Source of the DNA: Roseimicrobium gellanilyticum
GTDB taxonomy: Bacteria; Verrucomicrobiota; Verrucomicrobiia; Verrucomicrobiales; Verrucomicrobiaceae
DNA length: 64,000 nucleotides
Direction of reading: 5' to 3'
Assembly (NCBI RefSeq): GCF_003315205.1
Contig: NZ_QNRR01000005.1
Coordinates: forward strand, 310,001 to 374,000
Numbering within the stretch: the stretch's first letter is position 1; each line of letters begins with the position of its first letter. Below, one piece after another: positions 10,194-48,110 of this stretch. The notes under the pieces were generated by a model. It was given only the letters and a program-made list of their open reading frames with translations, did no database searches and was not told the origin of the DNA. Made by a program: the position numbers and the translations under genes.

Positions 10194-10244
10194 TCTGGGT
10201 GCGGAGCCGCTTCCTCATGCGAGGGTGAGTTGTCGCGGAAGATG

Positions 10245-10272
10245 ACGGCACTAGGCTAGTGCCGCTCCTTGG
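10245..10272 (+). repeat. REP palindrome R2 of the RAYT locus
   Basis: CGGCACTAGGCTAGTGCCGC followed by TCCTTGGA, in the same orientation as R3. With R1 it forms an inverted pair about 80 bases apart, upstream of the transposase coding region. Confidence 0.85.
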
Positions 10273-10297
10273 AGCGGTCGGCTTTTCATGTGGGAGG

Positions 10298-11041
10298 GTG
10301 GAGAGACGCGCAAACAATTTGCTCGACGAAAATGTATTCTATCGTTTCGTCCATGGCGTGGAGTTCAAGTATTTCAACCCCTTTGAATACGTCCGCGTCA
10401 CCCGCCAGAACTTGACGCATTGGCAGCAGCCGGGGGTATCCTATTTCCTCACGTATCACCTGGCGGATGCGATGCCCGCCGTGCTCCTCAACCAGTGGAA
10501 ACAAGAGCGGGCCATTTGGCTTTCCTTTCATCCCGAGCCCTGGACGCCTGAGGTGGAAGATGAATACCACCGTCGCTTCTCTTCACAGATGGAACGGTGG
10601 CTGGATGCGGGCCATGGTTCATGTGTGTTGCGTCGTCCCGAGGTGCGAGCGGAGGTAGAGGAGAGCTTCCGATACTTTGAAGGCGTGAGGTATCAAAGCT
10701 TCTCGTGGGTCATCATGCCCAATCACGTGCACTTGCTGGTGATGCTGCATCCGGATTGGACGCTGGAGAAGGTGCTCTTCACGTGGAAGCGACGGACCTC
10801 GGGACGTATCAATGAGCTTTGCGGCACGGAAGGGCAGCAGTGGCAGCATGACTACTTCGATCGAATCATCCGTGATGGGCAGCACTTTGACAACGTGGTG
10901 CGGTACATCCGGAGGAATCCCGTGAAAGCGAAGCTGCGGGAAGGGGAGTACACGCTGTGGGAGAGTGATGAAGTGAAGAGGGTGATGGGAAGCGAAGGAA
11001 GAAGTGGATCCGCGCCCAGAATTGCCGACCACCGGCACTAA
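10298..11041 (+). CDS. REP-associated tyrosine transposase (RAYT, Y1/HUH family)
   Basis: About 247 residues. Single-strand-acting HUH transposases use a His-hydrophobe-His metal site and a catalytic tyrosine. Both are visible: IMPNHVHLLV, and WQHDYFDRIIRDGQHF with the Tyr in DYFDR. The flanking YFLTYHLAD strand and YIRRNPVKAKL are typical of RAYTs. The start is uncertain. I chose the GTG at 10298, which clears the REP, but a GTG at 10259 is also open and lies inside R2. Three REP palindromes bracket the gene in mixed orientation. RAYTs are thought to move or maintain REP sequences. No TnpB partner is present. Confidence 0.9.
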   Translation: MERRANNLLDENVFYRFVHGVEFKYFNPFEYVRVTRQNLTHWQQPGVSYFLTYHLADAMPAVLLNQWKQERAIWLSFHPEPWTPEVEDEYHRRFSSQMERWLDAGHGSCVLRRPEVRAEVEESFRYFEGVRYQSFSWVIMPNHVHLLVMLHPDWTLEKVLFTWKRRTSGRINELCGTEGQQWQHDYFDRIIRDGQHFDNVVRYIRRNPVKAKLREGEYTLWESDEVKRVMGSEGRSGSAPRIADHRH

Positions 11042-11060
11042 GGCTAGTGCCGCTCCTTGA
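11022..11060 (+). repeat. REP palindrome R3 of the RAYT locus
   Basis: GCCGACCACCGGCACTAAGG followed by CTAGTGCCGCTCCTTGA. It overlaps the last codons and stop of the transposase gene, so the enzyme's C-terminus is encoded partly by the repeat. Confidence 0.85.
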
Positions 11061-11130
11061 ACTGTCGCCATTTCCAGATTAAATCGCGGGTGCTGACTTT
11101 GCAGGAATTCTCCACTCCTCCAGAAACTCC

Positions 11131-11400
11131 ATGGCATATGTCATCTGCCCCAAGCACGGAGGTTCCGGCGTTTACATGCTCTGCCCTCACGTGCTCCGTG
11201 ATTTTTTCGCGGGAGATTCGTTCGCGTGTTACCACGTGACCACTAATGAGTTCCTGGTACCGAAGATAGAACTCTGTGCTGACTGCCGCACTGAGTGGAT
11301 GAAACTCCAATCGGAAGACGAAATCGATGACTTCTTGGACAGGATTGGGCCGGTGTGTGGGCGATGCTTTCGCGAAAAGCAGGTAATTGAACTCACCTAA
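11131..11400 (+). CDS. Small zinc-ribbon-like protein
   Basis: Encodes 89 residues with four pairs of likely metal ligands: CPKH near the start, CPH, LCADC and VCGRC near the end. It has no signal peptide or membrane segment. I do not recognise the family; structural zinc binding is inferred from the Cys pattern. It converges on hrpA with only five bases between the two stops. The ATG was chosen because all Cys pairs lie after it. Confidence 0.6.
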   Translation: MAYVICPKHGGSGVYMLCPHVLRDFFAGDSFACYHVTTNEFLVPKIELCADCRTEWMKLQSEDEIDDFLDRIGPVCGRCFREKQVIELT

Positions 11401-15605: not shown

Positions 15606-15727
15606 TGGCTTCGCCACACAAGTTACCCTATAGGCGAGATGGCGATGTCATGAGCATGTGGTGTGGCCGAGCGTGAGGGCACAGAGATGCCTCCCTACAT
15701 GATGGTCGCACCGTCGCACTCGCAGCT

Positions 15728-16591
15728 TCACGCCGCCCTTGCCGTCGCGTCCACCTTGTTCCCCACGCTCACATAGCTCAGGAGCTGCACAATCTGCTCA
15801 CGCATCTTTTCGCGCGGCACAATCATGTCCACGAGACCGTGCTCCAGCATGAACTCAGCCGTTTGGAAGCCGGGGGGCAGGTCGCTATGGGTCGTTTCCT
15901 TCACCACGCGCGGACCGGCGAAGCCAATCATGCACTTCGGTTCGGCCAGGATGATGTCACCCACCGTGGCGAAGCTCGCGGTGACGCCGCCCGTGGTCGG
16001 GTGGGTCAGCACGGAGATGTAGGGCAGTTTCGCCTCGCCGTGACGCGCCAGGGCGCCGCAGGTCTTGGCCATTTGCATGAGGCTCAAAATGCCCTCGTGC
16101 ATGCGTGCGCCACCGGAGGCACTGAAGATGATGACGGCACAACCATCCGCCGTGGCGGCTTCGATGGCGCGGGTGATTTTCTCACCCACCACACTGCCCA
16201 TGCTCGCGCCCAGGAAGCGGAAGTCCATGATCGCCAGCACCACGGGGATGCCCTCCATCTTTGCTCGACCCGTGACCACCGCTTCCGTCAGGCCGGTCTT
16301 GGTCTGGTAAGCCTTCACCTTGCCGAGGTAGTCCTTGAAGCCGAGAGCGTTTACGGAGTCCAGATTCGCATCCATTTCCTGGAAGGTGCCTTCATCCACG
16401 AGGCTGGCGATGCGCTCCGCCGAGGTCAGGGTGAAATGGTGTCCGCAGTGCGTGCAGACCTTCATGTTCTTGGCGAGGGCCACTTCGTAGAGGCTTTCGC
16501 CGCAGGAGGGACACTTGATCCAGAGTCCCTCGGGCATGTCCTTTTTCTTCTCGCCGAGGTTGGAGACGTTGCGCTTGGAAAAGATTCCCAT
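15728..16591 (-). CDS. accD: Acetyl-CoA carboxylase carboxyltransferase subunit beta
   Basis: A 287-residue AccD that transfers carboxyl from carboxybiotin to acetyl-CoA, the first step of fatty-acid synthesis, as a heterotetramer with AccA. The N-terminal zinc ribbon has C27-P-S-C30 and C46-T-H-C49. The crotonase-like carboxyltransferase fold follows, with IIFSASGGARMHEG and LTHPTTGGVTASFA in the expected order. Length is close to the E. coli protein (304). accA and the biotin carrier are not in the window. It has no close co-directional partner; comF lies about 130 bases upstream on the same strand. Confidence 0.97.
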   Translation of the reverse strand: MGIFSKRNVSNLGEKKKDMPEGLWIKCPSCGESLYEVALAKNMKVCTHCGHHFTLTSAERIASLVDEGTFQEMDANLDSVNALGFKDYLGKVKAYQTKTGLTEAVVTGRAKMEGIPVVLAIMDFRFLGASMGSVVGEKITRAIEAATADGCAVIIFSASGGARMHEGILSLMQMAKTCGALARHGEAKLPYISVLTHPTTGGVTASFATVGDIILAEPKCMIGFAGPRVVKETTHSDLPPGFQTAEFMLEHGLVDMIVPREKMREQIVQLLSYVSVGNKVDATARAA

Positions 16592-16722
16592 GGAGGTGGT
16601 CGTAGGGGAAAGTTGTGAAAGTCGGGCGGTGGGCTGCCGCGTGTACCGGGGGATGAACTCAGTTCAGATCCAGCGGCGGGCGCGGGCGGGTTGGGACTAT
16701 GGCAATCGGTTGAACCGGAATG

Positions 16723-38187: not shown

Positions 38188-38961
38188 TTAGATCGTCATC
38201 GCCGAGTACCCGCCATCCACGACCAGTTCATGGCCGGTGATGAAGGAGCCCGCACCATTCGCGGCAAGCAGAAGGGCGGCGCCGACGAGTTCCTTGGCTT
38301 CGCCGAAGCGGGCCATCGGAGTGTGGGCCATGATCTTGGCCACGCGCTCGGGCACGAGCACCTTCTTGTTCTGCTCGGCGGGGAAGAAGCCGGGCACGAG
38401 GGTATTCACGCGGATGCCCAGAGGAGCCCACTCGCGTGCGAGGTTGCGGCTCAGGTTGTGCACCGCACCCTTGCTCATGGAGTAGGTGAAGACGCGGCTC
38501 AGCGGGATGAGGCCCGACATGGAACCGAGATTCACGATGCTCGCGGCAATCTTGTTATCCACGAAGTAACGGCCAAACACCTGGCAGGCCAGGAAGGTGG
38601 CCTTCGTGTTGATGTTCATGATGCGGTCGTACTCCTCCTCCGTAATGTCGAGGAAGGGGGTGGGGGAGTTCACACCGGCGCCGTTTACCAGGATATCGAC
38701 CTTGCCGCTGCGCTCGATGACTTCGTTCAGCAGGGATTCAAGTCCAGCCTTCTGGCCCACATCACAGGCCACGAAGTAGCCGTTGCCACCGGCGTCCTTG
38801 ATGCGGTCCAGCCTGGTCTGCGCCTTGGTCGCGTCCCGGCCTACCAGCACCACTTCCGCGCCAGCGGCGGCGTAGCCTTCCGCAATGGCGCCGCACAATT
38901 CTCCGGTACCGCCAATGACCACAGCGGTCTGGCCCTTCAATGAAAACAACTCCTGGCTCAT
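38188..38961 (-). CDS. Short-chain dehydrogenase/reductase
   Basis: Encodes 257 residues with all SDR marks: the cofactor loop [26 protein letters not shown], catalytic Ser in VNLGSMSG, and Tyr-x-x-x-Lys in [11 protein letters not shown]-terminal [11 protein letters not shown] is usual for sugar-acid or keto-acid reductases of the 3-oxoacyl-reductase type. A mannonate/fructuronate or gluconate-type substrate is possible but cannot be fixed from sequence. Its start overlaps the stop of lnt by four bases (ATGA), so it is translationally coupled to lnt. Confidence 0.9.
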
Positions 38962-40334
38962 GTACCGCTCTTCTTAGCAGCAGCGCCCGGCAGGAGCAAG
39001 GCGATCCACCACACGGCGGCCGCGCCCAGCATGAACCACGGCGCCAGCCAGCCAAAGCGGGTGTAGAAGGTCTGCTTGGTGCTGCGCTGCAGCACCCCGG
39101 TAAGCACCCCTTGCTGCATGGGGGCCAGGCTGGCATGCACATGGCCATTCGGGTCGATAATCTGGGATACCCCTGAGCTGGCTGCCACGAGCATCCAGCG
39201 TGCGTTCTCCGCCGCGCGGATGCGGAAGAGCTCGGCATGCTGCAGGTGCTGCCAGGTGCCCCAGCGGGCAGCATCCATGGAGGGCACCATGATGGTCTCC
39301 GCACTGGCGGCGGTCATGCGACGGGCCACATCGGCGAAGTCGCAGTCAAAGCAGACGGGCGTGCCCACGTTTCCCTTCCGGGTCGGCACCGGCAGGGAGG
39401 TTTTGCCGGGCACGCCATCATCGAAGAGGTGTACCGGGTGCACCTTGTGATGTTCCCCGCGCACGCCCAGGCCGTCCAAGGTGAGGGCGGTGTTGTACCA
39501 GCCCTCCTCTTTGTTGAGCTGGGTATGCGTGCCCAGTGTGAGGGTGATGTCCTCCTCCTTGCAGAAGGTGGTGAGCAGCTTCCACTCGGCCGCATGGGCG
39601 CGCACGTCGTAAGACAGGGCATGCTCCGGCCACACCACATGCTGGATTTCCTTGGGCAGTTCACGTGTCGCCTGAATCAAGTCGGAAAGCGAAATGTCCT
39701 CTCCCTGAATGGCAGCGACCCGGATGGATTGGGGGCCATTCTTGTCCGGCACGGGGACGGGACGCTGCACAAACGTGAGCGTTGCCAGCGCTCCCAGCGT
39801 GGTGAGTCCTGGGAACCAGCGTCGGCCGAGGAGGAACGCAGCGCCCAGGACCAGGCACGCACCGGCACCATACACACCCACCCGGGGCAGCAGGGCATTG
39901 GGGCCGAGGGCGAGCCCGGCCGTCATCCACGGAAAGCGTAGCGGGAACAATTCCGCGCGGATGAATTCCCACGCGGCCCAGTTCACCATGGTGAAGACCG
40001 CCAGCTGCCACCCACGCAGTCCCAAGCCCACGGCCCGGCCCTGAGCTACGGCAAATGCTCCCGGAAAGAGGGCCAGAATCGCCCACAGGAGGATCGCCCC
40101 CGCACCGAAGATGTGCCACAGCCAGGTGAGTCCCAGGCCAAAGGCCACCATGCCATGCAGGAAACCCACGACAAAGGCCTGCCGCCCACGCAGGCCACGC
40201 ACGGCCAGCAGCAGGCCCATGATGCCCGGGAGAATCAACCAACTCCCCTTCACAGGTGGGAAGGCCAGTGCATAAAACACACCGGACAGTGCTGCGAAGA
40301 AGCAGCGGGGCATGAGTGGGGGGGATTCACGCAT
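38958..40334 (-). CDS. lnt: Apolipoprotein N-acyltransferase
   Basis: About 458 residues from the ATG at 40334; a later ATG at 40313 is also possible. Lnt adds the third acyl chain to lipoproteins at the inner membrane. The N-terminal half has six or seven membrane segments ([20 protein letters not shown] begins them). The nitrilase-like half has the catalytic Glu in [11 protein letters not shown], a Lys in the [16 protein letters not shown] region and the nucleophile Cys in [13 protein letters not shown]. The last membrane segment is [16 protein letters not shown]. The stretch after the Cys reads FDCDF, whereas many Lnt proteins have Tyr-Glu there. It follows the HAD gene. Confidence 0.93.
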
Positions 40335-40416
40335 GGGCGGGGGACGCCATAGGCCAAGCAGCGCCCGTGGCAAGGGGCGGATGGCGAAAATAATTCATGA
40401 TGATCTGAGACTGGGC

Positions 40417-41280: not shown

Positions 41281-41931
41281 TCAGTAGAGCGTAACTTGAC
41301 CGTTGTAGGGATTCACCACGATCGAGCGAAAGTCCGGCGGCAGGTCTCCCTGGCCGCCCAGATGCTTCTGTTGCACCAAGGTGAGCACGGTCTTCTGGGG
41401 GCGCGGCAGGGTGGTCCCGCCATCTGGCCGGATGATGTAGCTGATGTATTCATACGATTCCCCGATGTCAGCGTCGTTGGGGCCAGCCTGCACGGGTGTC
41501 TTCGCCAGCAGGGTGGTGTGATTGGGATTCGGAGTGAATACAATGCCGGCAGGCAGGCGCTGGACTTCCTGGGTGAAGGCTATCTTCGGTTTCCCTTCTG
41601 CATCCCACCCCGTGATGGTGGCGATCTGGTAGGCGCGGAACTCCTTGCCTTCATCGAGTCCTCCGATGCCTGCCTCCGAGCATCGGTAGAATCGCACTTC
41701 CACAGGCTTGTTGTCCCGTTGGGCGATCATGGTGGCGTGGTCGAGGTCGCTCGCCACCTGTCTTGCCATGCCGCTGAGCTTCTGTGAGGCGATGGATCCT
41801 GGAACCGTGAGCCCCACCATGGCGAGCATCAGTGCCATGATGGAGACCACCACGAGGACTTCCACCAAGGTGAATCCATGTGCTTTGCGCCGGTGGCTGG
41901 CAGGAGAAAACGTGACGTGATGGGTATGCAT
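41281..41931 (-). CDS. Verru_Chthon cassette protein D (pseudopilin-like)
   Basis: Encodes 216 residues. A type IV prepilin signal is present: a basic leader ending in AHG, then FTLVEVLVVVSIMALMLAMV, with Glu at +5 of the mature chain. The rest is a soluble beta-rich head with DGGTTLPRPQKTVLTLVQQK near the end. The size and N-terminus match the GspH/FimT-like class and the family known as Verru_Chthon cassette protein D. It is the last of four co-directional genes, 12 bases after gene C. Processing by a prepilin peptidase and assembly on a secretion-type platform are expected but those genes are not in the window. Confidence 0.9.
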   Translation of the reverse strand: MHTHHVTFSPASHRRKAHGFTLVEVLVVVSIMALMLAMVGLTVPGSIASQKLSGMARQVASDLDHATMIAQRDNKPVEVRFYRCSEAGIGGLDEGKEFRAYQIATITGWDAEGKPKIAFTQEVQRLPAGIVFTPNPNHTTLLAKTPVQAGPNDADIGESYEYISYIIRPDGGTTLPRPQKTVLTLVQQKHLGGQGDLPPDFRSIVVNPYNGQVTLY

Positions 41932-41943
41932 GTGGGGCTCGGG

Positions 41944-43062
41944 TTATTGGAGTTCCGTGATCCACTTGGAGGCACGCAGGGAAACCGTGGTGGTGAGCAG
42001 CTTGTAGTGGAGCTTGAGCCCGCCAAGACCTGCTTCCACAGCCTTCAGATCGTCTGCGTTCTTGGCAAAGTCGGTGAACTTTCCTTTCAGCACTCCGCGC
42101 ACTTTTTCAGCCGCCGCATCCGCGTCGCCCCCGTTCAAGTTTACGAAGCGGTCGTATTCCTTTTCATCGGCCACGATCAGCGTGATTCCCACCATCGGTG
42201 GCAGTTGATGCTGCCGTGAGCGGCTGATGGTATTGACGCCATTCCACTGCAAGTCACGGCTGTCATATCCATACTTGGAGTCCGGCTCGATCTTGGTATC
42301 GGAGTAGCCGGAGCCTGCGTTCGTCACGGTGACATTCGCAGAGAATGGCACCAGCACCACGGCGAGCACGTTTTCCGCAACCGGTCGTGAATGCTCGGTC
42401 AGATCGTCTTGAAACCACTTGATGGCATCTGCCCGGGCCTTCTGGGTGTTTATCTTCAGCGTGGTGCTGTAGAGGATGCTCTTCTCCGCGGGTTGGGCAT
42501 ACTGCATGAGACGGAAGCGTTTCCGTTCGGGATTCACGTTCGTATTCTGCTGCATGAAGTTCGGCCGCTCGGCCAGGTCGCTGTCGTACTTCACGTAGTA
42601 ACCCCAGCAGTTCATGAGGTCATGAAGGCGCTCATACTGGGAGGTGGCGCCTCCGTTTCCGGCAGCTCCGCCCAGCGAGCCTGCATGACCCAGGGGCGCC
42701 TGGAAAAACACGGCCTGACCATGCTCTTCACCCTTGGTGCCCACGAGATCCTTGGAGGCTGCAAGAATGAAGTGGTGGTCCGAGGACCGCTCGTAGGAGG
42801 TGGCATTGCCATTCGCATCCCGCTTGAAAGCCCAATAGGCATCGAGCGAAGCCTGGGACAGCGAGTAGCTCATGGAGTCCAGTGCGGCGCGGGCCTCCTG
42901 GAATTCCGTGACCTGGGTGTTGGCCTTGCTGACAGTATCCTGAGTGCGAACCAGCACGTCTGCCAGCAGCGTGACCATCAAGGCCAGAATGCTGATCGCT
43001 ACCAGCAGCTCCACGATGGTGAATCCATACCTGTTCCGTCGTTGTTTGGAGGAAGAGTCCAT
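41944..43062 (-). CDS. Verru_Chthon cassette protein C (pseudopilin-like)
   Basis: Encodes 372 residues. The prepilin signal is RYG then FTIVELLVAISILALMVTLL with Glu at +5, on a short basic leader (SSKQRRNR). The head is large for a pseudopilin and has VLAVVLVPFSANVT and MVGITLIVADEKEYDRF, resembling the GspJ-like class. It matches the remembered Verru_Chthon cassette protein C family. It is third in the cassette, 45 bases after gene B and 12 bases before gene D. Confidence 0.9.
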   Translation of the reverse strand: MDSSSKQRRNRYGFTIVELLVAISILALMVTLLADVLVRTQDTVSKANTQVTEFQEARAALDSMSYSLSQASLDAYWAFKRDANGNATSYERSSDHHFILAASKDLVGTKGEEHGQAVFFQAPLGHAGSLGGAAGNGGATSQYERLHDLMNCWGYYVKYDSDLAERPNFMQQNTNVNPERKRFRLMQYAQPAEKSILYSTTLKINTQKARADAIKWFQDDLTEHSRPVAENVLAVVLVPFSANVTVTNAGSGYSDTKIEPDSKYGYDSRDLQWNGVNTISRSRQHQLPPMVGITLIVADEKEYDRFVNLNGGDADAAAEKVRGVLKGKFTDFAKNADDLKAVEAGLGGLKLHYKLLTTTVSLRASKWITELQ

Positions 43063-43107
43063 GATGATGGCGGTGGTGAAGGGCTGGGGAGGGAGACCGT
43101 GGGAGGA

Positions 43108-43653
43108 TCAGAGTTTCGCCATGGGTCCGGTCTGCTCGAGGTTGGCCACCCACACGGAGCGCTGGCTGAACTGCTTCGAGTTGTCCTTCAGCGCTTCGGC
43201 ATAGTTGGGTCTGTCGGTGAAGCGCAGACGGAGTTTGCGCAGGTAGGGATTCCCCCAGTTGTCGCCCTGGATGGTAGGAGGCACTTGCTCTACTTTCGCT
43301 TCGACAGTGTACATGCGGTCCGTGTCATCAGCGCCCGGCACTTCCGCGCCTGTCTGGTCGAAGAAGAACATCTTGTCCTTCAGTTCGATCTTGGTTGTCC
43401 CTGAGCCCTTGTCCTGCGTGACCCAGGGAGTGGTCTGGTAGAAGGACGTGATGGTCTGCACCATGCGCGCCTCGGCCTGCTTGTTTGCCGAGTGACGAAT
43501 CGAGTCCAGCCCAAAGGGGACCATGCCCATGAGCGTCAGGAGGCAGATGGTGGCAATCCCCACGGAGAGGGCCACTTCCGGAAGGGTGAATGCTGAGGCG
43601 AAGTTCCTTCGCGAGGATCGAAATGCAGCGGTGATGCTTTTCATGGGGATCAC
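43108..43653 (-). CDS. Verru_Chthon cassette protein B (pseudopilin-like)
   Basis: Encodes 181 residues from a GTG at 43653 that overlaps the stop of gene A (GTGA), or 178 from an ATG at 43644. The prepilin signal is SA then FTLPEVALSVGIATICLLTL with Glu at +5; the residue before the cleavage site is Ala, not Gly, which is tolerated in some pseudopilins. The head resembles the GspI-like class in size. The overlap with A shows translational coupling. It matches the family of cassette protein B. Confidence 0.88.
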   Translation of the reverse strand: MIPMKSITAAFRSSRRNFASAFTLPEVALSVGIATICLLTLMGMVPFGLDSIRHSANKQAEARMVQTITSFYQTTPWVTQDKGSGTTKIELKDKMFFFDQTGAEVPGADDTDRMYTVEAKVEQVPPTIQGDNWGNPYLRKLRLRFTDRPNYAEALKDNSKQFSQRSVWVANLEQTGPMAKL

Positions 43654-46600
43654 GGGGCGAATTGTTTGCGCTCCACCACGCGGAAGCGGTAGTGCTGGTC
43701 CCAGGTCTTGGGGAAGTCGCCGTAACCCTGACCCACGTTCACCAGTTCCTTGTCATTGGGATCCATGTAGCGCTCCAGCGTGGTGGAGCCGCGGTACTCG
43801 GACTGCACGCTATCCTTGCCCTCGATCCAGCGCGAGGCATCGGTGGAGCGCGCCTTGCGCAGCATCTGCACGCGATAGTGCACGGTGTACGTGTTCGACT
43901 TCGTGGTCAGTCGTGGATAGAGCTGGCCATAGGGCGCCTCGCGACTGTTGTCCCCGGTGATCTCGAAGGCATCAGCCTGGTTCAGATTGCCATTCCACCA
44001 CTGCACGATGTCCTCATAGGTGCCGGGTACTTTGGCATCATCATTGTACGTCTTTCCCGGAATGCGTTGGGGCACCAGGAAGATCTCGCAGATCTCCGAA
44101 GCGGAGCGGAATACATCCCCCTGGCCGAAGCGGCGCTTGAATCCCTTCAGCGTTTCCTTCACGTTCACCAGATAACGCAGCTCCTTGTTATGGATGGTGC
44201 CTTCCTTGTAGTTCTTGCCGCTTCCGTTGTTGTATCCGGCGGAGGTCTTGCCTCCTGCGGAGTTGGGCGTGATGGCCGCGAAGATCGTGGACTTCATCGC
44301 ACCATAGAGTCCCGTGCTGCGCTCGATGTGGCGGAAGGGCATCATCTCATAGTTGATGTTGATCTTGCCCGCCGTGGAGAAAGCCTCGCTGATCGCATAA
44401 GGCTCGACCACCGGCATCCAGAACAGGTCGAGGATCAGGTGATCCCGGGGTGACTTGAATCCCTCGTGATCGAGCTTGTTGGGTTCTGAGGTGGAGGATG
44501 TGGAGCGCGAGGCCGGATTGGGGCAGAAGAGCAGCGTCTGCCAGGGTCGGACCGCCGTTGCTGTGTCAGATGCCTTATACATGCCCGTGGGCAGCGAGCC
44601 AAAAGCCACGGCTGACGCGATCTGACGGTTCGGACTGTAGCTCGCGCCTGTTTCAACATTGAAGCTGCCCCTGCTGAAGTAGCTGTTGGCGCCAGTGGCC
44701 AGGTTTCCCTCGTCCGCCTTGTTGATATAGGGACCATCTTCGATCTTTCCGGTGCCATTGTCGAAGTCACCTGGCCTGCCATCCGCATTCATCGCGCCGT
44801 CGAGACCACGAGGCACTGCGGGTGGACAATCGCGATAATAGGTGACGCCTTTCACCAGCGTGCCGGCGGTTTTGTGCGTGTCTGCTCTCGAGTTGTTGTA
44901 GTTCTTTCCAATGGTGGCATCAGAACCCGGTGGACCAAATTGTCCTCCGTAGGTGTGATTCCCCATCCGGAGGAAATGCAGGCGCTCCACGTCGAGACTC
45001 GCATATTGCGGATGGGTGGTGAACCAGGTCTCCGGCACTTCCTTCATGAGTGACACCATGCGCAGGTCACCTTTGATGACATTGTCCACGCCGATCTCCA
45101 CGCTGCGGGTGATATCCCCGTCGCGGATGATGGAGGTCATGAAATCACCCGGTGCCACATTGAAGCGGCCAGCGATGTCATTGAACCCCTTGTTCAAGCT
45201 GTCATCGGTCAATCGTGGAACCTTGAGCTTCACTGGAGGAAAGGTCAGGGTCAGCTTTTGCACCGTTTGTGCCGCGCCCAGTCCATTCTGCACCTCGACG
45301 GTGATGGTACCTCCGGAGAACTGAAAGTCCGTCTTCCCGGTGACATTGATCTTCTTGCTGTAGAAGGGGAATCCCTTTTCCGGGTCACCTTGTACCAGGG
45401 TTCGGCCACCGGATTTTCCGTTGCCTGTGGCGCTGTCGATGTTCGCCTGCTTGAACTGCTGTGTCAGGCCATTGAACGGAGTGGAGTGTCCACCTCCGAC
45501 CCAGCCCACGGCCACATTGGCATGGAGCGTGGCATCGCTGGGAAAGCCGAGATTGTCCGAGCCAGCCTGAAAGCCCTGCAGTCCGGTGATCCTGTACCGC
45601 ACATCGGGCGACCAGCTCGGTGGTCCGGAGGTCGGTGAGAAGGGCTCCACGATGACAAAGGCCTGCATCTCGGAGGTGGCCTTGGTGCCGTCGGGTTTGT
45701 TTTGTGTCGCCGACGCCGCGAAGACGATGGCGACTTCAGTGACGGTAGGGAAGCGGCCAAATCCCCGGGAACCATTCGTCGAGACCGCTGGTACAGCGGA
45801 GGATTCTCCCAGATACTTGCCCGTGCGCTGGGGGAGGAAGTAGTACTTCGGCTCCATGGCCGTGCTGTAGCTGTTCACGGACCAGCGCAGAAGGTCGACC
45901 ATCTCGGTGAGCACCTGGTTGCGTCGATCTGCGCCCCACTTGATTTCAAAGGTGCTGCCAAATCCGGGAACGGGATAGGTGCGGTTGGCCGACTTCGCGC
46001 CCGTGTAGGGCTGCAGCATGCCGGTGTACATGTCCGTATTGCGGCCCGGGCATCCGTCGCCGAGTTCGCCTTTCACGTTCTGTGAAGAGCCGGGCTCGGT
46101 CGTCGATTTGAAATTGGACTGGCGATGGAAGTACCACGGTCGTCCACCCGCAGTCCCGAGGAATGCGAGCAGCTTGTCCATGGCATTCCGCTGGGAGGTA
46201 TTCAGCGACATGGGCCAGAGCATCACGCGCGGCTTGTTGAACATCGTGAGCTCCGGCGCGCGACTGTGCGCCGTGAGGAAGAATCTTCCCAGTGCGATAT
46301 CTGCATGCGTCAGCGGTGGGTCTTGCAGCTTCCGGTCCCGATCAAATACCAGCTCATCCAGATTCGCATAAAGGCGGGCGTCCTTTCCTGTGAGGGAAAT
46401 GGCCGTGGTCGCGGCCTCCGTACCGCCTTTGCTCCCACCCCATGCGATGCGTGGGCTGATTTTGAAGTAGGGTTCCAGTGCCTCGGCCAAGGCAGTATCA
46501 CTCGCGCCTGGATCGACCAGCCATGAGGAGCCAAAGGCTTGAAATACCGGGCTCAGACACGTCTGTGCCGGATGTCCTGCATAGCGGGCAAACTCATTCT

Positions 46601-47555
46601 GCACCGGCTGCTTCACCGCGTAGTTGTTTTCAGTGGCGGTGTAGGATCGCGGCACGTCCCACGGGCGGCTCTCGGAGGCCGTGTTGATGTTGATCTTGCA
46701 GGACTCGTCATCGGTCCAAAACGCCAGCCTGCCGGTGATGGGATTCTGCGCGGTGGGTTTGTCTGCAGGCAGGAATTCGAGGCCTTGTTCGGCGTTTCCG
46801 CCGACTGGCGCGACCAACTTGCCATCCGCCAGCACGTAGAGCCATTTCACCGGCATGGGCAGGCGCGCTTCGCGATCGGTCTCATCCGAGGGAATCTTGG
46901 TCCCCGGCACGGCCGATTCATCAATGGCGAATCCATCCACCGCCTTCCCACCGTTGCGGGCGAATGTGGCGCGCGGGTCAGAGATGGGGAATGCGGTTTC
47001 CACCTTGTCAGAGCCCGCTACGACCACCGGGGCTGGCTCATTCACATCCACATACATGCCCGGCACCTTCTGCCAGTCCTTGAGGGCGCTCACATCCGCA
47101 TCCAGAGCCGTCTTCACCTGGGCGGCGGTCATGCCCTCTTTCGTGGCAGTCGCGCCCTTGTTGGTCACTACCATCTGCTCGTCAGAATACAGCTTGTACA
47201 AGGCGATGGTTTTGGAGCGGGAATAGTCCGTGTTACCCACGGTTGCGTCTGCCTCCGTGCCAAACACACGCAGCATCCCCGGTTGGGATGACCAGGAGCG
47301 CTCCACGCCATTTTGCTCAGTGGCCCTGCGGATTTGGGCGATGGCAAGATTCACCGGAAGCTCAGAAAGGATCCGGGCATCCGTCATGTCAGAGAATGCG
47401 GCGGAAGACCGCTGCTCGGTACGGGAAAGCGCCAGCAGGGAGAGCACCAGCATGGACACCACTACGATGGTCCCCAGGACGAGGACGAGGGCGACTCCTG
47501 ATTGCGTATGCAGGCGTGTTCTTAGGTGAAAGTGTATCATAAAATAAGATTTCAT
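43650..47555 (-). CDS. Verru_Chthon cassette protein A (very large pilin-like protein)
   Basis: About 1301 residues from the ATG at 47555; a second in-frame ATG lies at 47540. The N-terminus has a basic leader (HFHLRTRLHTQSG) and the hydrophobic helix VALVLVLGTIVVVSMLVLSL, like a prepilin but without Glu at +5, as in GspK and PilX. The remainder is a huge soluble region rich in Gly/Asn/Thr with no enzyme motif that I can name. It is the first and largest gene of the four-gene cassette; B overlaps its stop. Surface or periplasmic display at the tip of a pseudopilus is inferred. Confidence 0.9.
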   Translation of the reverse strand: MKSYFMIHFHLRTRLHTQSGVALVLVLGTIVVVSMLVLSLLALSRTEQRSSAAFSDMTDARILSELPVNLAIAQIRRATEQNGVERSWSSQPGMLRVFGTEADATVGNTDYSRSKTIALYKLYSDEQMVVTNKGATATKEGMTAAQVKTALDADVSALKDWQKVPGMYVDVNEPAPVVVAGSDKVETAFPISDPRATFARNGGKAVDGFAIDESAVPGTKIPSDETDREARLPMPVKWLYVLADGKLVAPVGGNAEQGLEFLPADKPTAQNPITGRLAFWTDDESCKININTASESRPWDVPRSYTATENNYAVKQPVQNEFARYAGHPAQTCLSPVFQAFGSSWLVDPGASDTALAEALEPYFKISPRIAWGGSKGGTEAATTAISLTGKDARLYANLDELVFDRDRKLQDPPLTHADIALGRFFLTAHSRAPELTMFNKPRVMLWPMSLNTSQRNAMDKLLAFLGTAGGRPWYFHRQSNFKSTTEPGSSQNVKGELGDGCPGRNTDMYTGMLQPYTGAKSANRTYPVPGFGSTFEIKWGADRRNQVLTEMVDLLRWSVNSYSTAMEPKYYFLPQRTGKYLGESSAVPAVSTNGSRGFGRFPTVTEVAIVFAASATQNKPDGTKATSEMQAFVIVEPFSPTSGPPSWSPDVRYRITGLQGFQAGSDNLGFPSDATLHANVAVGWVGGGHSTPFNGLTQQFKQANIDSATGNGKSGGRTLVQGDPEKGFPFYSKKINVTGKTDFQFSGGTITVEVQNGLGAAQTVQKLTLTFPPVKLKVPRLTDDSLNKGFNDIAGRFNVAPGDFMTSIIRDGDITRSVEIGVDNVIKGDLRMVSLMKEVPETWFTTHPQYASLDVERLHFLRMGNHTYGGQFGPPGSDATIGKNYNNSRADTHKTAGTLVKGVTYYRDCPPAVPRGLDGAMNADGRPGDFDNGTGKIEDGPYINKADEGNLATGANSYFSRGSFNVETGASYSPNRQIASAVAFGSLPTGMYKASDTATAVRPWQTLLFCPNPASRSTSSTSEPNKLDHEGFKSPRDHLILDLFWMPVVEPYAISEAFSTAGKININYEMMPFRHIERSTGLYGAMKSTIFAAITPNSAGGKTSAGYNNGSGKNYKEGTIHNKELRYLVNVKETLKGFKRRFGQGDVFRSASEICEIFLVPQRIPGKTYNDDAKVPGTYEDIVQWWNGNLNQADAFEITGDNSREAPYGQLYPRLTTKSNTYTVHYRVQMLRKARSTDASRWIEGKDSVQSEYRGSTTLERYMDPNDKELVNVGQGYGDFPKTWDQHYRFRVVERKQFAP

Positions 47556-48110
47556 GATGCAAACACACAATGATATGTATCGGAAGACATGGCACAAATG
47601 GCGGCAACCGCTGCAGCGGCGCGCCTCTCAGACTCGGATGGGGGATCGGCTGGATGCTTCCTCGATTGCAGGCGTCACCTGATCACGCCTGCCTGTGCGG
47701 CCTCTATTGCCGCTCGCCCAGCCGGAGGACTCCTACTCTAGGGGAAAGACTCAGCGCGGACGCTGAGCGACATATGCTGCAAGTCGTGACCGGGGGCTTC
47801 CAGGTCCGTGCCTGAGTGGCGTGGAGCGGATCTGGTGTGGGCAGCATTTCGTGCCACCGATGGCAAGAGACAGGCAACACCTGGTTCGTCTCTAGCAGGC
47901 ACCGGGCGCGAACCGTGGGGGGAAGGGGCGCGCATGTTCGTTGGGGGATTTACATGGAATATACAGAATCCATCCCCTGAATGACCAGACTAAAACCGAT
48001 CACCTCTCATTATTAGTTATTCGAAGATAAAACAGCATTTTGCACGCTAACATAAGCGTGACATAACATGACGCGCTTATATCGAATAACCCACCTTGTG
48101 CAAGACGGCG
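47556..48110. other. Intergenic space upstream of the cassette, with an AT-rich palindromic island
   Basis: No gene is visible. 47600-47940 is GC-rich without repeats that I can place. 47940-48100 is notably AT-rich and contains GTTATTCGA (48016-48024) and its reverse complement TCGAATAAC (48082-48090). Between them lies CACGCT/AGCGTG (48043-48060). The island is just downstream of the metallo-hydrolase stop and about 450 bases upstream of the cassette. Confidence 0.5.
47570..47597 (-). promoter_or_regulatory. Candidate promoter of the pseudopilin cassette
   Basis: On the reverse strand TTGTGC and TATCAT are separated by 16 bases, ending about 15 bases before the ATG at 47555. If correct, the transcript would start almost at that ATG, which favours the later ATG at 47540 or a leaderless mRNA. 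The boxes match the consensus only moderately. Confidence 0.3.

Follow-up and report, generated by a model that had tools for sequence, protein, structure and literature searches.

The DNA analysed here carries a four-gene pseudopilin cassette, and several of its sister copies adjoin genes for giant repeat proteins with a PEP-CTERM tail. These neighbours are the main clue to the cassette, and they lay outside the view of an earlier, sequence-only reading of the same DNA. The reading that we prefer, and which we place just short of an even chance, is that the four proteins (A, B, C and D) form a tip for a shared core and that PEP-CTERM giants, exported over the outer membrane, are the usual cargo. 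The cassette families were already known as models; the linkage of sister cassettes to giant PATR-repeat/PEP-CTERM proteins is new. Our literature search found no paper naming the cassette families and no published function, and on PEP-CTERM export no link to the cassette pseudopilins was found in titles, abstract openings and passages. The TIGR numbers of the cassette models neighbour those of PEP-CTERM (TIGR02595) and EpsH (TIGR02602), and these adjacent numbers suggest that the curators may have been aware of the linkage.

The window carries a complete Verru_Chthon cassette

The window is the whole stretch of DNA that was analysed, 64,000 nucleotides corresponding to bases 310001-374000 of contig C5 in a genome of 7.93 Mb and 32 contigs. 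Its cassette lies on the minus strand and is transcribed in the order A-B-C-D. The features are as follows.

43650..47555, minus strand: cassette protein A, putative giant GspK-like minor pseudopilin (TIGR02600); the open reading frame opens at a TTG at 47597
47310..47555, minus strand: leader and N-terminal pilin helix of A (SG^VALVLVLGT, without Glu5), containing the GspK-matching stretch
43108..43653, minus strand: cassette protein B, prepilin signal SA^FTLPE (TIGR02598; GTG start)
41944..43062, minus strand: cassette protein C, prepilin signal RYG^FTIVE (TIGR02599)
41281..41931, minus strand: cassette protein D, prepilin signal AHG^FTLVE and GspH-like N-terminus (TIGR02596)
47556..48110, minus strand: intergenic stretch upstream of A, without a cargo-like gene

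The start codon of B overlaps the stop codon of A (4 bp), and gaps of 45 bp and 12 bp separate B from C and C from D, in agreement with the four co-directional, overlapping or closely spaced genes described by the sequence-only reading. The position 47555 given there as the start of A is an in-frame ATG at residue 15 of the open reading frame 43650-47597, which has a TTG start. The identification of the genes as Verru_Chthon A-B-C-D was borne out, since all four proteins scored above the curated NCBIfam cut-offs: A reached 1291.5 bits on TIGR02600 (cut-off 332.3), B 180.1 bits on TIGR02598 (51.4), C 409.2 bits on TIGR02599 (256.5) and D 195 bits on TIGR02596 (70). The profile comparison proposed beforehand therefore placed the four proteins with the cassette models and not with GspH-K. 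The four genes of the window are a real and full Verru_Chthon cassette and not a chance resemblance.

On one side the cassette is flanked by genes for a HAD-family hydrolase, a weak match to apolipoprotein N-acyltransferase, a short-chain dehydrogenase and QueA, and on the other by a gene for a metallo-beta-lactamase-fold protein. The apolipoprotein N-acyltransferase-like protein (38961-40373 of the window) scored 111 bits, against a cut-off of 132.9 for lnt. Promoter-like matches around 47556..48110 were not above chance.

Prepilin signals and the GspK-like N-terminus of protein A

Three of the four genes had been credited with textbook prepilin signals. C and D fit this description, with Gly as residue -1, Phe as residue +1 and Glu5; B departs from it slightly, as it has Ala at -1 although Glu5 is present (SA^FTLPE). 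Protein A has Gly at -1 and lacks Glu5 (SG^VALVL). Across the collected cassettes the residue at -1 was Gly or Ala in 41/41 B, 19/19 C and 16/16 D proteins, with Ala in 4, 9 and 8 of them, respectively. Glu5 was found in the same 41/41, 19/19 and 16/16 proteins, a share that arises partly by construction because the script demanded an acidic residue (Glu or Asp) at +5. Among 133 distinct A proteins the leader site was placed in 125 and not placed in 8, and Glu stood at +5 in a single one of the 125. Three subunits with Glu5, as given by a B-D site search that required Glu or Asp, and one subunit without it is also the composition of GspH-I-J-K of the type II secretion system (T2SS), the genes of which likewise adjoin. 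The subunit without Glu5 is GspK in T2SS and PilX in type IVa pili (PMC7541494, in excerpt).

A profile built from 44 A proteins matched the Verrucomicrobiota GspK profile with a probability of 94 (E 1.4e-7) over A residues 24-92, compared to 11, 33 and 44 when B, C and D, respectively, were compared with the same GspK profile. Past residues 24-92 no significant likeness of A to GspK was found; short collinear matches with E-values of 0.0076 and 0.074 were not counted as evidence. AlphaFold predicted an N-terminal helix of 62 residues at moderate confidence, with A modelled as two halves (pLDDT 74.3 and 72.0, pTM 0.59 and 0.73), a split that may have divided a pilin domain built from both ends. 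Foldseek gave no PDB match at E <= 0.001 for either half, and in a second structure comparison, performed with the N-terminal half only, the best Z score of 4.3 fell on a lone helix. A profile search of the PDB returned nothing for the N-terminal half and, for the C-terminal half, two matches with E about 1 that were taken as chance. A resembles GspK at its N-terminus, and its large remainder has no match to solved structures.

The sequence-only reading had also proposed that the cassette builds a modified tip of a T2SS or type IV pilus. This is supported only indirectly, by the three Glu5 subunits and one without, by the GspK-like N-terminus of A and by the lack of GspG among the four proteins.

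A core secretion machinery is encoded elsewhere in the genome

The matches of the genome to the secretion ATPase (PF00437), secretin (PF00263) and prepilin peptidase (PF01478) all lie outside the window, as the earlier reading had stated, and its prediction of a core machine encoded elsewhere proved correct. Contig C22 carries gspE-F-G-H-I and a fourth pilin-like gene at the gspJ position. The genes gspK and gspD (secretin), with three unassigned genes between them, are found on contig C5 about 80 kb from the window. Of these T2SS proteins, G scored above the equivalog cut-off of its best model and E, F and D below theirs; H, I and K matched their own families best, below cut-off, and the product of the gene in the gspJ position had no GspJ match. 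A single prepilin peptidase match was found genome-wide, on contig C4. Further T2SS-type genes are present on C8 (ATPase and platform), C17 (ATPase, platform and secretin) and C14 (ATPase and secretin), and the genome also holds a PilM match and two exosortases. With 12 ATPase and 13 secretin matches above cut-off, the core used by the cassettes is not singled out.

Cassettes occur in many copies and evolve as units

The own genome (G000) encodes 11 full A proteins, one of them in two pieces, and one weak match that is the true GspK. All 11 own cassettes are complete with B, C and D, as are the five examined in other genomes (16/16 in total). Over these 16 cassettes the gene order is A-B-C-D in 12, B-C-D-A in three and B-C-A-D in one. 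The distances among A, B, C and D proteins agree over the 16 cassettes (Mantel r 0.77-0.88, p 0.0002), which suggests that the cassettes evolve as units. The presence of 11 cassettes, a canonical T2SS elsewhere and one prepilin peptidase makes it look as if the cassettes were spare tips served by one common core.

Of 387 genomes from the phylum, 8 had matches above the TIGR02600 cut-off, compared to 37 of 40 genomes of the own family and none of 14 controls. A second collection, in which the best 80 of 351 stretches were kept, included Verrucomicrobium, Prosthecobacter, Phragmitibacter, Chthoniobacter flavus, Spartobacteria, Methylacidiphilales and others as hosts. Genome G394 (8,220,857 bases) has 24 A loci above cut-off and the same-genus genome G387 has seven.

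When weaker matches were considered, 207 of the 387 Verrucomicrobiota genomes had some TIGR02600 match. Most of the listed matches cover just the first 50-60 model positions, often in frames of 700-1500 residues, and some of the weak ones are short frames or ordinary GspK. Examples among loci L081-L095 are L083 (4434-8180) and L090 (4934-8674 and 10453-14310). Several of these weakly matching frames adjoin other pilin-like genes, pointing to a wider, unnamed giant-pseudopilin family. In L160 of G394, two 351-aa genes with near-identical starts (10241-11296 and 15616-16671), REP-type transposase-like by eye, lie close to cassette genes and are a possible means of spread.

Giant PEP-CTERM proteins lie beside sister cassettes

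The giants adjoining sister cassettes range from about 800 to more than 4000 residues and have a Sec-type start, as judged by eye, and a PEP-CTERM tail, as found by pattern. Four giants were scanned: three contain PATR/autotransporter-type repeats and one a T5SS/PEP-CTERM-associated repeat, and no autotransporter barrel was found in the four. Two of them scored 18.3 and 19.3 on TIGR02595 (cut-off 16); the other two show the tail by pattern only. In the own genome a giant is found directly beside 6 of the 11 cassettes and 4 kb off for a seventh. The other four, including that of the window, have no giant within the 5-7 kb in view on each side.

To quantify the linkage, same-strand PATR giants, drawn from the best 150 scored matches per genome, were counted within 6 kb of A loci. 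Such giants were found at 5 of 11 A loci in G000, 4 of 7 in G387 and 11 of 24 in G394, where three PATR giants were each scored for two A loci; before counting, the true GspK had been removed for G000 and G387, and three weak A loci for G394. The corresponding null means were 0.43, 0.23 and 0.76 (p <= 1e-4 each), obtained with guessed lengths for contigs C18 and C19 and with small contigs excluded. Within 2.5 kb, 4 (p 1e-4), 2 (p 0.008) and 7 (p 1e-4) loci had such a neighbour. Among 80 named loci, 22 have a PEP-CTERM/PATR gene within 1.5 kb, in 17 cases same-strand and at <=300 bp; at 8 more the gene lies further away, and at 50 none is in view, some of them limited by contig ends. A distance of <=300 bp from a PEP-CTERM/PATR gene was thus seen for 17/80 named loci versus 18/546 other genes there (Fisher p 9e-8, with some loci being close relatives and hence not independent). 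Among the 26 listed PATR frames of the own genome, 20 have no adjoining cassette.

The similarity of A proteins was also compared with that of their neighbours. No significant correlation was found within the own genome (r -0.02, p 0.53, n=6) or within G394 (r 0.26, p 0.06, n=12). The overall correlation (r 0.44, p 0.0002, Spearman -0.03) reflects orthologues and is based on 24 pairs picked from cassettes with a neighbour, with L156, the downstream L019 giant and the second A gene in each of L148 and L149 left aside. A lock-and-key relation at the level of paralogues is unsupported by the within-genome tests.

Several arrangements near cassettes were observed in addition. In L148 and L149 of G394 two different cassettes or A genes flank a single PEP-CTERM giant, and in L158 and L159 an A gene without labelled B-D stands beside a divergent giant. 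Upstream of cassettes, PATR open frames of 8045 residues (G000:C1:585073-605991) and 10060 residues (G387:C1:1383440-1412335) were found. A small sigma-factor-like gene with a larger partner, recognised by eye near cassettes in L015 (4623-6817) and L077 (240-3091), is a possible regulator.

The cassette-giant pair is conserved across genera and the cassette can differ beside one giant

When orthologous cassettes of different genera were compared, the giant was the sole non-cassette gene in common, within view, between L010 and L077, L164, L165 and L146, between L018 and L079 and L151, and between L011 and L148, with one flank gene in view for L146, one for L151 and two for L148. The giant of L010 lies downstream and is convergent, while in L077, L164, L165 and L146 it lies upstream on the same strand. 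In the L009 and L172 pairs the giant was unlisted owing to gene-calling and a half-length rule; the tails of L009 and L154 agree. L076 and L154 have one additional frame in common (62% over 258 residues), and the Verrucomicrobium loci have flank genes in common among themselves. G387 lacks the giant of L010, and no A protein among its seven has L010 as its closest counterpart.

At one locus two kinds of cassette were found beside the same giant (L015/L137 on contig C10 of the own genome versus L157/L277 at 0.41 Mb, within 0.40-0.43 Mb, of G387). The flanks are syntenic, with proteins of 193, 538 and 781 aa that are 93%, 87% and 84% identical and, on the other side, 94% identity over 302 residues, and the PEP-CTERM giants are orthologous (71% over 2224 residues). 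The cassettes, however, differ: A has 1389 aa in the order A-B-C-D on C10 versus 1023 aa in the order D-B-C-A in G387, and the cassette proteins align pairwise in pieces only, at 26-47%. They each match their family profile (133, 63, 67 and 74 bits), and A of G387 is above the TIGR02600 cut-off with its pieces summed (414 bits). On the simplest reading, one cassette subfamily replaced a distantly related one next to a giant that stayed in place, though the cassette may instead have diverged quickly at its site.

The cassette of the window itself has no PEP-CTERM neighbour, and no PEP-CTERM tail was found by pattern within the window. Its closest relatives (L162, L166 and L170; 60% identity) likewise have none in view, and beyond the cassette genes and frames over them no neighbour common to the window and these relatives was found. 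The next relatives (L010, L077, L164, L146 and L165; 55-58%) do have a neighbour, a giant of the 815-aa type. A second copy of the L010 giant was not found in the own genome, and G387 has no A protein nearest to that of the window. The cassette of the window may act on a giant encoded elsewhere or have another job.

A model for the cassette and its alternatives

In the mechanism that we propose, A, B, C and D would be four minor pseudopilins from which one shared prepilin peptidase removes the leaders. B, C and D, which have Glu5, would assemble with A, which lacks it as GspK and PilX do, into a complex that primes a short pseudopilus and forms its tip. A core with genes at other sites, most simply the canonical T2SS, would supply the shaft, ATPase, platform and secretin. 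The outer portion of A, which is very large, would face the cargo, and each cassette would be an alternative tip. The usual cargo would be a giant repeat protein with a Sec signal for entry into the periplasm; its PEP-CTERM tail would hold it at the inner membrane until release by exosortase, after which it would be pushed through the secretin. In known systems the pseudopilus tip consists of minor pseudopilins with GspK (XcpX) on top (PMC6211770, in excerpt), and GspK has been proposed to contact substrates (excerpts of PMC7541494). In contrast to the GspH-K set of a T2SS, A has about 1300 aa versus 318 for GspK, no GspG or core gene is among the four, and 11 cassette copies exist beside one canonical T2SS.

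GlyGly-CTERM with rhombosortase and MYXO-CTERM with myxosortase resemble PEP-CTERM in combining a C-terminal motif, a helix, a basic end and a membrane protease, and T2SS is named for the outer-membrane step (PMC3237569, PMC11980579). Proteins with these tails of the same plan rely on T2SS to reach the outer membrane (PMC11980579, in part). In our case the tails are of the PEP-CTERM/exosortase type, and their link to a T2SS-like tip comes from gene linkage only. In Akkermansia, levels of PEP-CTERM proteins in intracellular fractions exceeded those in outer-membrane fractions (PMC4960237, in excerpt); this, together with the exchanged cassette being a distant homologue rather than an unrelated one, reduced our confidence in the export reading. 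Proteobacteria and cyanobacteria have PEP-CTERM proteins as well (PMC1569441, in excerpt), and there the evidence on cassettes consists of the 14 negative controls, and a general route can therefore not be assumed.

We consider it unlikely that the cassette instead caps a type IV pilus, the large part of A being a displayed adhesin and the giants co-regulated surface partners rather than cargo. This would agree with the several ATPase and secretin genes and the PilM match, and it fits orphan cassettes better. Moreover, Myxococcus xanthus uses 12 minor pilins and three PilY1 proteins with one type IVa pilus machine, and its minor pilin/PilY1 clusters 1-3 resemble the cassettes in being several tip clusters for one machine, with one subunit without Glu5 (PilX) and a large tip protein (excerpts of PMC7541494). 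However, A-D gave no PilX or PilY1 Pfam match (E up to 1) and only PilV matches below cut-off (21.4 and 13.4 vs 52.2), and cassette and giant are kept together across genera, which is true of no other gene in view. The M. xanthus system also differs in having three clusters of four pilins with a separate PilY1 (same excerpts), compared to 7, 11 and 24 A loci in three Verrucomicrobia genomes, where the large part lies inside pilin A itself and the cassettes are linked to PEP-CTERM giants.

Improbable in our view is mere hitch-hiking, by which two functionally unconnected kinds of gene would have been duplicated in unstable regions. Both cassettes and giants are highly duplicated families, and the similarity of A and neighbour is not significantly correlated inside one genome, as this explanation would have it. 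Against it, the linkage is enriched in three genomes, the same pair recurs across genera in a different arrangement, and G387 has neither the giant of L010 nor an A protein closest to L010.

The Hps pseudopilins of filamentous cyanobacteria have a role in polysaccharide secretion. By analogy, the cassette could drive secretion of exopolysaccharide (EPS), with the PEP-CTERM proteins as simultaneously made matrix proteins, a possibility to which we assign little weight. Among the Hps models in NCBIfam (HpsC, HpsB), HpsC is the best non-cassette match of C (E 1.6e-7), and PEP-CTERM systems are tied to EPS genes (PMC1569441, in part). However, the HpsC score of 31.2 is far below the cut-off of 200, and no HpsA match was listed for A.

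That A-D are mere extra copies of GspH-K of an ordinary T2SS is very improbable and was rejected on scores: D resembles GspH and A resembles GspK at the N-terminus, and D scores 41.0 on GspH, equal to the own GspH of the genome (40.8), but all four exceed the cassette cut-offs and none those of GspH-K (best score/cut-off: GspH 41/80, GspJ 20/64.85, GspI 15.8/44.35, GspK 14.7/130), and, as the own GspH (40.8) and GspK (82.8) miss these cut-offs too, it counts further that these two proteins reach just 19.9 (cassette model D) and 27.2 (model A) and that A is about four times as long as the own GspK.

Returning to the reading of A-D as a tip for a shared core, about half of the eleven cassettes lie directly beside giants, which suggests that these kits equip a shared secretion machine for giant proteins. 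The two kinds of cassette that stand beside one and the same giant offer a ready natural pair for comparison. A further-reaching and rather doubtful version is that of a tool-changer, in which one T2SS-like core would serve a dozen or more exchangeable four-pilin tips for different PEP-CTERM giants, with tips being exchangeable at a fixed cargo locus. If true, such a system would fill a gap in exosortase sorting in Verrucomicrobia, namely its missing step at the outer membrane.
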